Origin: Natronomonas moolapensis 8.8.11
Lineage (GTDB): Archaea > Halobacteriota > Halobacteria > Halobacteriales > Haloarculaceae
Direction: 5' to 3'
NCBI RefSeq assembly: GCF_000591055.1
Contig: NC_020388.1
Coordinates: 1,922,001 to 1,986,000, forward strand
DNA: 64,000 nt
Below, in pieces: positions 2,887 to 6,027 of the stretch (positions are counted from its first letter, which is position 1; each line of letters opens with the position of its first letter). The notes beneath the pieces were generated by a model, which saw nothing but the letters and a program-made list of their open reading frames with translations, did not search any database and was not told the origin of the DNA. Position numbers and translations under genes: made by a program.

Positions 2887-3326
2887 ACGGTGCAATTCAG
2901 TCAATTGGAATCAGCTTCTCATAGGCCATATAAAATAACGTCTATTTTAAATTTCTCCGAATCAAGTTATGTATAAATGGGGATCTCCCAACTGATGGTC
3001 GATTCTCAAGTGATCGGTGGGTACGTTGACGGTTATAATGATGTGCGAGTCATTCGTCTTTAGCTAAGACTCACACCTCGGTTGTGTAGCGGTAGCGATC
3101 GTCTCTTGTAAGATCGGTCGTTGTTGGTGGATCTCCTGAGCATCCTCGATCAGCCGCTCGAGCAACGGCGGTGGCGAGTAGCCAAGGTACTCTCCGAGTT
3201 CGTGGAGGATGAGCTGGGCGTGCGACCGAAAGGTCGCCGCCCAGCGTTCCGGCGGAAACACGATCTCGTCGTCGGCCTGCTCGGTGACCAGATCTAACAA
3301 CTCACGACTCACCAACAGTGACAGCA

Positions 3327-3337
3327 ACGCCGCGTAC
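3327..3337. repeat. Target-site duplication, left copy
   Basis: The 11-base sequence acgccgcgtac is identical to the copy at 3743-3753. The two copies border the 405-base element, and dropping one copy restores the transposase reading frame. Confidence 0.9.
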
Positions 3338-3395
3338 GAAGGTGTCATAGAACAATTCACATGGTCGTCTAACTGTGCTCAACTCGGTTGAAATC

Positions 3396-3416
3396 GCCGT
3401 GCACTTAGTGCACGGC
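3396..3416. promoter_or_regulatory. Perfect palindrome over the RHH gene promoter
   Basis: The half-site gccgtgcact is followed by one T and then its exact reverse complement. It ends 20 bases ahead of the RHH start codon, so it covers the position where the TATA element should be. Ribbon-helix-helix proteins bind such palindromes and often repress their own gene, so autorepression is a reasonable inference. Confidence 0.7.
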
Positions 3417-3436
3417 ATTCTTAGCGTGTCTCAGTT

Positions 3437-3637
3437 ATGGCGAAGGAGAAGTTTGGAATCGCTGTCGAGGAAGACATCGTCCAAGAAGTGGATGAGCTGG
3501 TTGCTGAGTGTGACGATCTCGGAGCCAGCCGCTCCGAGATCGTTGAGGCCGTACTCAAAGCGTTCATTCAGTCCGACTCAGATCATATTAAACAGGTGCG
3601 AGAAATCATAATTCGGAGACGAAAAGGAACTCTTTGA
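3437..3637 (+). CDS. Ribbon-helix-helix (CopG/Arc-type) DNA-binding protein
   Basis: This is a 66-residue protein starting MAKEKFGIAVEEDIV. The pattern is a short beta strand (KFGIAV), helix A (EEDIVQEVDELVAEC), a turn (DDLGASRSE) and helix B (IVEAVLKAFIQ), which is the CopG/Arc fold. A basic C-terminus (IIIRRRKGTL) follows. It is the only gene inside the 405-base mobile element, with a perfect palindrome just upstream and a near copy just downstream. It probably acts as a dimer that binds these palindromes and represses its own promoter. No toxin partner lies next to it, which argues against a complete toxin-antitoxin pair. It could also regulate the element's movement or related elements elsewhere in the genome, which I cannot test here. 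Confidence 0.85.
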   Translation: MAKEKFGIAVEEDIVQEVDELVAECDDLGASRSEIVEAVLKAFIQSDSDHIKQVREIIIRRRKGTL

Positions 3638-3647
3638 GCGATTTTAG

Positions 3648-3672
3648 AGTCCGTGCACTGAATGCACGGACT
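3648..3672. promoter_or_regulatory. Second RHH-type palindrome, downstream of the gene
   Basis: The half-site agtccgtgcact pairs with its reverse complement at all but one position around a central G. It shares the core ccgtgcact with the site at 3396-3416, and both are followed by a similar ttct(t/a)agc block. It lies 11 bases past the RHH stop and points out through the right end of the element, so it may control an outward promoter or serve as a second binding site. Confidence 0.6.
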
Positions 3673-3742
3673 TCTAAGCTTGTAACGCTCTAAAACAGTA
3701 ATTTGAATGACTGAAGTGTGGGAACTATTCTATGACACCCTC

Positions 3743-3753
3743 ACGCCGCGTAC
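3743..3753. repeat. Target-site duplication, right copy
   Basis: This is the second copy of acgccgcgtac, directly after the right inverted end of the 405-base element. Confidence 0.9.
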
Positions 3754-4204
3754 AACAATATTTCCACGATATCCGGATCGCTTGTGTCGAATTCGTCCAG
3801 TTCGTACTGTGTCTTCAACTCACGGAACAACGTTTCTACTTCCCACCGACACCGATACAGTGTCGCTAGATCGGACGGCAGGAACTCCTCTCGCGGAAGA
3901 TTCGTGATATAGAGATGGTAGTCGTCGGCGTCCTCGTCGCGGACGCCGACGACGCGGAACCGCTTCGTATCCAGTGACCGCGTTCCTTCGTACTGACCGC
4001 GTTTGAACTCCGCTTCGACCTCTACGTCGATGTACGTCCGCGAGAGGTCATCGACTACGTCCTGGATCTGCTTGCCCTCCAAGGGAATGGCGCGCCCGCG
4101 CCATTCCCGAAATTCCGCCGTTATCACCGGATTCGCGTTCTGCTTCAGCCGACTCGCGAAGTAGCCGTCGTTCTCGTCGATCAGCGCAAACCGGCGGTAC
4201 TTGA

Positions 4205-4435
4205 GAAGGCGTGAGACCACTGATTAAACACCGCGTCTTCGCACCCTACGACCACGCGCACAACGTGCGGATCGAAGACGATCTCTACAATCAGCGGTCG
4301 GTCTCTGAGACTGTGAACTCGGTGATTAAGCGCTCGTACGGCTCCGCCGTCCGAGCGCGTGCCTGGTACCGGCAGTTCCGAGAAATCACTCTCGTCGCGG
4401 CAGTCTACAACGTCGAACGAACACTCAAACAATAA
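4205..4435 (+). pseudogene. C-terminal remnant of an IS5-like transposase
   Basis: About 76 codons remain, reading EGVRPLIKHR and later RSVSETVNSVIKRSYG and WYRQFREI, ending at TAA (4433-4435). This matches the last part of the DDE domain of IS5/ISH-type transposases (E of the triad in the SVSETVNS helix). A stop codon lies just upstream at 4202-4204 and the N-terminal two thirds are absent. It is fused head to head with the truncated IS4 transposase, so the two remnants mark a recombination or nested-insertion junction. Confidence 0.75.
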
Positions 4436-5094: not shown

Positions 5095-6027
5095 ATGGAG
5101 TCAAAGAGGACAAGGGCACCGCGGCAGCGGTGCCCGACACGAATGATTCCGCTGGATGTGTTTGGGTCGGAATCGGTCGCAGCAGACCTGCTCCAACAGG
5201 TTCGCTGGCGTGACGGTGTGACCTGTCCTCGCTGCCGTTCTGACCGAACGGTCAGAAACAGCAGCTACAGAGAGTTTTAACGGTATCTCTGTAAGAATTG
5301 CGACCGCACATTCAACGACAAGACAGGCACTATCTTCGCTCACTCGAAGATCGCACTCCGACGGTGGTTGTTCTCCATCTACGCGTTTCTCAGATTTAAC
5401 ACAAGTCTCAGCCAACTACGGTGCGAAATCGAGGTGACACACAAAACGATGCACCGGCGAATCGAGCGCTTCGCCAGAGCGCTCGATGCGCCTTCTCTTG
5501 ATCTGGTTGGGCCGGTTGAAATCGACGAAGTGTACGTCTCTGCCGGGAAGAAAGGCCGCGAGCGCGACCGGGAGTCGCGCTCGCGTGGCCTGTCCACGCG
5601 CGGGCGTGGTTCGTACAGCGGCGACAAGCCACCTGTATTCATCCTCGCCGACCGAGGTACTGGACAGCGGTACGTGAACCCGGCGAAAGCCGCAGACGAA
5701 TCGACGATTCGACTCCTGCTGGCCGACCGCCAGCAGGAGTCGTTAACCGTCTATACCGACGGCTTTCGAGCGTACGAACCGCTCGAAGACGACGATGCAT
5801 TCGACCGCGAATACGTCGTCCACAGCGATGGCGAATACGCCGATGATGGGGTGCACGTCAACACCTGCGAGAGCCACGCGTCGCTGACGCGACGGTGGCT
5901 CTCGCCCCATCGAGGTGTTTCTAAGGACAAGCTGACACAGTACCTCAGAGCGTTTCAATTACGTCGAGAACTGTATCGAAAACCTGGACGAGACGCTCTC
6001 AAACACGCTGTCCAAGCAACACTGTGA
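5095..6027 (+). pseudogene. IS1595-type transposase with one in-frame stop
   Basis: The full frame is 310 codons. The first part has a zinc-ribbon half site CPRCRSD; a TAA stop occurs at 5278-5280; the frame then continues at once with RYLCKNCDRTF, the second CxxC pair. The rest carries the IS1595/ISXO2 DDE domain: VEIDEVYVS, VYTDGFRAY and a HVNTCESHASL block followed by HRGVSKDKL. A single change (CAA or CAG to TAA would do) explains the break, so the inactivation looks recent. The terminal repeats are not convincing by eye. It lies between the lipoprotein and tRNA-Arg, inside the island. Confidence 0.85.

Follow-up and report, generated by a model that had tools for sequence, protein, structure and literature searches.

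Why would a mobile element of 405 bp that encodes no transposase retain the gene of a predicted DNA-binding regulator? The question is raised by a locus in the stretch of 64,000 nucleotides of Natronomonas moolapensis 8.8.11 DNA analysed in this study (NC_020388.1, positions 1,922,001 to 1,986,000; hereafter the window, in which all feature positions are counted). Haloarchaeal MITEs that carry a gene, ISH2 among them, have been on record for decades, and the role of the gene has never been assigned; an earlier note on this DNA treated a MITE with a gene as an exception, a view that finds no support here, since ISH2 has long been known with a related ORF. We consider it probable that the element is a cassette with ISH11-type ends on which a transposase of the ISH11 family (IS5) acts in trans, and that its cargo is a CopG-like RHH repressor working on two operators. 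If this is true, the gene is an autoregulated repressor with its sites inside the element, selected while the ends and the helper change. The locus would then offer a clear test of why a tiny element lacking a transposase retains a regulator, as well as a small archaeal pair of RHH protein and operator whose specificity has changed in nature.

Insertion, ends and mobilisation of the element

The non-autonomous, ISH11-ended element of MITEHsal2 type occupies positions 3338-3742 (+ strand), as shown by its ends, its duplication, the host alignment regained on its removal and full-length homologues elsewhere. Its terminal inverted repeats, GAAGGTGTCATAGAACAATTC on the left (3338-3361; ends as in ISH11) and GAGGGTGTCATAGAATAGTTC on the right (3719-3742), are 24 nt long and 83% complementary, in agreement with the inverted ends of about 24 bases described earlier, and the 21-nt end pattern occurred twice in the window against none in 100 shuffles. 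The target site duplication ACGCCGCGTAC is an exact 11-bp repeat, with its left copy at 3327-3337 and its right copy at 3743-3753. When the insert and one duplicate are removed, the minus-strand IS4 transposase frame reopens, and the empty site gives an ungapped 738-bp alignment to ISH8B positions 666-1403 at 86% identity. The reopened frame and the unbroken alignment demonstrate that the insertion is real, as the earlier note had claimed.

The ISH8B alignment also means that the interrupted host (3051-4204, - strand; DDE_Tnp_1) corresponds to the 3' part of an insertion sequence of ISH8 type (IS4 family), truncated on the other side as well. Therefore, the proposal of an IS4 host stands as regards the restored transposase frame, but not as regards an intact host. 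A fragment of another DDE_Tnp_1 transposase (4211-4435, +) adjoins this remnant and, with an IS1595-type (ISXO2-like) transposase close by (5368-6027, +), makes the region an insertion-sequence cluster. The genome announcement of Natronomonas moolapensis contains nothing on such elements.

The only passenger is one ORF of 66 aa and a transposase is absent, which bears out the description of a transposase-less mobile element with an RHH protein as its sole gene. With IS ends around a passenger gene and no transposase, the element is by definition a mobile insertion cassette. As to the transposase that moves it, an IS of 1069 bp from a related genome has the same GAGGGTGTCATAGAA ends and encodes a transposase with 95% identity to that annotated as ISH11 in Halobacterium NRC-1; the full-length IS with the same ends that the earlier note had proposed to look for is thus ISH11. 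The window's own genome contains an intact ISH11-like copy (92%; C1:699541-700530) with the same GAGGGTGTCATAGAA termini. Flanking repeats of related elements measure 5-12 bp, mostly 6-9, and PMC10264941 gives ISH11 target duplications of 6-9 bp, a range that the 11-bp duplication of the window copy exceeds. Together, the ends shared with ISH11, the intact copy in the same genome and the sizes of the duplications in relatives point to mobilisation by ISH11 (IS5 family), whose transposase would act in trans on the cassette ends; from sequence comparison, this assignment appears well supported.

Several smaller pieces of related DNA were also observed. In the same genome, an ISH11-like fragment adjoins a right-end piece of the window element (88%; C1:1898173-1898364), and a decayed element end with one mutated operator lies at C1:1470371. 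An 827-bp element elsewhere (L084; G088:C34:51610-52436) has ISH11-type ends, an apparent 9-bp duplication GTAACGTTA and an unrelated 218-aa ORF that matched nothing in Pfam or PHROGs, so other passengers are also carried by ISH11 ends. In Halomicrobium katesii, two near-identical 264-bp derivatives (L162 and L163; G068:C1, ~1287517 and ~2873095) possess ISH11-type ends and one operator without the RHH gene, which indicates that the gene is dispensable in cis for movement.

The element is one of many. Full-length relatives at ~75-78% identity were found in many haloarchaeal genera, including the other copies with intact cargo that had been proposed as a check, and a profile search detected the RHH gene in 47 of the 391 sampled genomes of the class, with up to 11 copies per genome among the matches listed. 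Our collection comprised about 104 distinct copies, none of which looked like a fixed chromosomal gene, the ends of six (L078, L082, L146, L153, L155 and L157) being undefined. The conditions that the earlier note had set for its own refutation turned out in favour of it. A viral origin was rejected because relatives were absent from viral contigs and phage records.

A predicted regulator gene between two promoter-like units

The RHH (CopG-like) regulator gene lies at 3437-3637 (+) and encodes 66 aa. Its Pfam RHH_1 score is 20.0 bits, against a curated cut-off of 20.5, and its AlphaFold model consists of a strand and three helices (pLDDT 86.5). CopG was the top Foldseek match of this model, but the resemblance in fold is weak (Foldseek E 2.8; Z 3.8), and a profile search of PDB sequences returned no significant relative. 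The ORF is free of stops in 82 of 89 copies, and the median dN/dS was 0.19, 0.22 and 0.14 in three clades, values of ~0.2 in relatives that are those of a gene under purifying selection. Proteins of this class are expressed, as the related RHH protein of ISH2 was detected by mass spectrometry as one of only four mobilome proteins in Halobacterium proteomes (PMC10134880).

On either side of the gene stands GTGCAC-N3-GTGCAC, matching the palindromes mentioned in the earlier note: the left operator GTGCACTTAGTGCAC at 3399-3413 and the right operator GTGCACTGAATGCAC at 3653-3667, whereas whole-window shuffles contained a mean of 0.11 such sites. Both are included in a 33-nt direct repeat (3397-3429 and 3651-3683, 82% identical), and the right promoter-like unit is thus a direct copy of the left one. 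Each unit has a TATA-like box 5' of its operator, to which we assign a presumptive promoter role (TGAAAT, 3389-3394, +, A/T-rich, conserved and directly 5' of the left operator; TTTAGA, 3643-3648, +), and a second box 3' of it (TTCTTAG, 3418-3424, +, a possible transcription start region; TTCTAAG, 3672-3678, +). The left operator would accordingly sit between the TATA box and the start site, a usual position for archaeal repression.

This arrangement is conserved. Both operators are present in 83 of 91 copies; the left one, found in all terminal-repeat types, is the best-conserved non-coding 15-mer at 1.65 bits per position, well above its flanks, and the right one, also supported by the palindrome counts, is strongly conserved across copies. 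An A/T-rich TATA-like box stands 5-10 nt 5' of the operator in 43 non-redundant copies, and TTYTNAG is conserved 4 nt 3' of each operator. The pMV158 copG promoter contains TTGCATTGAGTGCACGG, and the right operator of the window reads CGTGCATTCAGTGCACGG on the minus strand, alike in core and spacing. Judged by this resemblance, the RHH gene has a CopG-type operator (TGCA-N5-TGCA core) in its own promoter, as in pMV158.

Protein and sites have also changed together. In a variant clade with CTGTC ends, both operators are TTGCAG-N3-CTGCAA and residue 5 of the protein is E instead of K. This co-change is a single event in one clade, and all half-sites of both operators are involved. In CopG, residues 4 and 6 contact DNA bases. 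Residue 5 of the RHH protein aligned to residue 4 of the DNA-bound CopG structure 1ea4, and the K5 to E change is located in the predicted DNA-contacting strand.

The placement of exact operators is nearly exclusive to the elements. The 2.9-Mb genome that contains the window has one exact site, which belongs to the window element. Across six genomes with the gene, RHH copies account for 36 of the 39 exact sites (28/28 in G019, G346, G369 and G296; 4/5 in G185; 4/6 in G301), and six genomes without the gene have none. The variant operator behaves alike, with 10 of 11 exact sites at RHH copies, and those gene-less sites of H. katesii that were read out stand beside ISH11-type ends or within derivatives. 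No operator was found in ISH11 (two copies; best 4 mismatches of 12) or in ISH8B (best 3). As the operators are nearly private to the elements, the regulator appears to act on the element itself, and the conserved operator pair around the gene suggests that the earlier idea of a self-regulating cargo is probably right.

Based on this evidence, we propose that the RHH protein binds both the operator in its own promoter and that in the duplicated promoter-like unit just 3' of the gene. It would repress its own promoter and, in all copies that a cell contains, silence the two promoter-like units, possibly by looping from one operator to the other. Against this proposal, simple autorepression would need no second operator. 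The likely benefit would be an element that stays quiet and costs little whatever the host or helper; the persistence of the module while its ends change would then be explained.

One module with many ends and an invertible centre

The operator-RHH-operator unit was found with about seven terminal-repeat types, several with their own duplications of 8-10 bp. Apart from the ISH11 type, the module has ISH8-type ends and a 10-bp duplication in ISH2 and in copies from Halorubrum, Halopenitus and Halovenus; CATCCGTGTTCGGTTAAG ends and a 10-bp duplication in L073 and L080; CTGTCGCGTTTCGAGTATWTAA ends and an 8-bp duplication in L144; and CATTCGTTCTAGTTTAA ends, which are IS4-like, with a 10-bp duplication in L103. 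Two further repeats occur in L066 and L067, neither with a clear duplication, and the ends of L067 contain N. Three other RHH copies (L082, L146 and L078) share a left edge, CGCTCATC, ~107 bp 5' of the gene, with no recognisable inverted repeats, and are possibly a further type of vehicle.

In the protein tree, which rests on 66 columns and resolves little else, every multi-member end type forms one clade, and L103 branches as the sister of the ISH11-ended clade (support 100/99). The position of L103 and the clades of end types indicate that module and ends have become re-associated more than once. This suggests that selection keeps the unit of gene plus sites rather than its vehicle.

Within the gene, a perfect palindrome, GATCTCGGAG-N7-CTCCGAGATC (3515-3541), spans the codons DLGASRSEI. 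In 34 non-redundant genes, a mean of 8.8 of the 10 arm positions are paired, compared with 5.5 (largest 6.0) in 500 synonymous shuffles, and third-position conservation is 0.85 in the palindrome against 0.66 elsewhere. The palindrome is thus conserved more strongly than coding requires. Seven copies from several lineages (L118, L138, L139, L146, L152, L155 and L157) have the 7-bp centre inverted, and the inversion turns SR into AG where the second helix begins. One genome (G165) carries two inverted copies and one upright copy; an inverted and the upright copy differ at 8 of 405 positions, five of them within the inverted centre.

Template switching at a hairpin accounts for the inverted centre without selection, and a programmed switch through inversion of the centre is possible on the sequence pattern. 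A bolder reading joins these observations, namely that the unit is a selfish regulatory module which gains new ends and so passes from one transposon family to another, unrelated one, and in which inversion of the 7-bp centre toggles between a DNA-binding and a non-binding regulator; we regard it as speculative and quite doubtful.

Alternative roles and known systems

The main rival to the autoregulated repressor is a role in joining the ends, in which the RHH protein would be an architectural transposition factor that loops the element and joins or masks its ends for any transposase. The operators are set back ~60 and ~75 bp from the two ends, their spacing of 250-256 bp (242-243 bp in the T3 type) is near whole helical turns, and the module is retained with unrelated ends, as such a factor would lead one to expect. 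However, each site belongs to a directly repeated promoter-like unit that includes a TATA-like and a TTYTNAG box, a better fit to transcription control, and the two near-identical 264-bp copies have one site and no gene; we therefore hold this role to be unlikely. The palindromes might also be RNA hairpins, serving as terminators or insulators rather than protein sites. Although the right palindrome lies directly 3' of the stop codon and its arms are extended and matching in ISH2-type copies, 37 of 83 copies have an uncompensated A/C mismatch between positions 3 and 13 of the left site, Rfam gave no match, and the sites co-vary with a residue in the strand predicted to contact DNA, which makes hairpins improbable.

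The earlier note had itself offered three roles for the regulator, each of which fits the data poorly. Rewiring of host promoters, either by RHH binding elsewhere or by the outward-reading right unit, is prompted by a right operator inside a promoter-like unit directed out of the right end. Exact operators are nevertheless rare outside the elements, and neighbouring genes show no bias of orientation, those reading away within 200 bp being 10/44 at the right end and 10/44 at the left, so such rewiring seems highly improbable. Repression of the helper transposase would suit a helper-dependent element whose sole DNA-binding cargo is an RHH protein, but neither ISH11 nor ISH8B contains the operator and the module also travels with several unrelated end types; little credence can be given to it. 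Finally, small RHH proteins are often antitoxins, as were some of the weak fold matches, and an addiction-like pair of antitoxin and toxin might be imagined; yet there is no second conserved ORF, and the non-coding parts apart from operators and ends are poorly conserved, so that a module of this kind is scarcely conceivable. The autoregulated repressor with two operators is thus the reading that we prefer. The accessible literature, which does not include ISfinder and most subscription papers, has no account of the operators or their co-change with the protein, nor of a module with many ends or an invertible centre.

The type of element is already known: it is a MITE or mobile insertion cassette of the MITEHsal2 type, with cargo in common with ISH2. 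MITEHsal2 of H. salinarum 91-R6 measures 411-413 bp including duplications in PMC10264941 (Table A2), and subtraction of its 6- or 8-bp duplication gives 405 bp, the length of the window element; where searched, the article mentions no RHH gene. Homologous 405-bp copies that share the ends of the window element and carry an RHH ORF of 80% identity are present in H. salinarum 91-R6 (plasmid pHSAL2; DSM 3754 draft). DNA identity between the window element and these copies is ~76%, and the window copy differs in its 11-bp duplication. Judged by the listed length and the copies in the same strain, the window element can almost certainly be assigned to MITEHsal2 as a diverged copy.

ISH2, a Halobacterium MITE of ~520 bp that is mobilised by ISH8, also lacks a transposase, and its RHH ORF is homologous to that of the window (59% aa) with the same operators at -39 and +212. 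In contrast, its ends are ISH8-type (CATTCGTCTTTAGTTAAGA) with mostly 10-bp duplications, whereas the window element has unrelated ISH11 ends and 11 bp. An ORF has likewise been reported in the ISH2-type HqIRS32 of Haloquadratum (PMC3119063). ISH11 itself shares the termini with the window element, and its duplications are similar in length to those of the element's relatives, but it has a transposase and neither operator nor RHH gene.

Mobile insertion cassettes (MICs), such as those of the IS231 group, hold a passenger gene inside IS ends without a transposase. The term is used in PMC3129680, and the present element differs from other MICs in that its passenger is a tiny regulator between its own apparent operators. 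As for the regulator, CopG of plasmid pMV158 is an RHH repressor, as is proposed for the window protein, and it likewise has a TGCA-N5-TGCA operator core in its own promoter, although the two have low sequence identity and the window protein has a predicted extra C-terminal helix. The window module also differs from that of pMV158 in that two operators flank the gene and a replication gene is absent.
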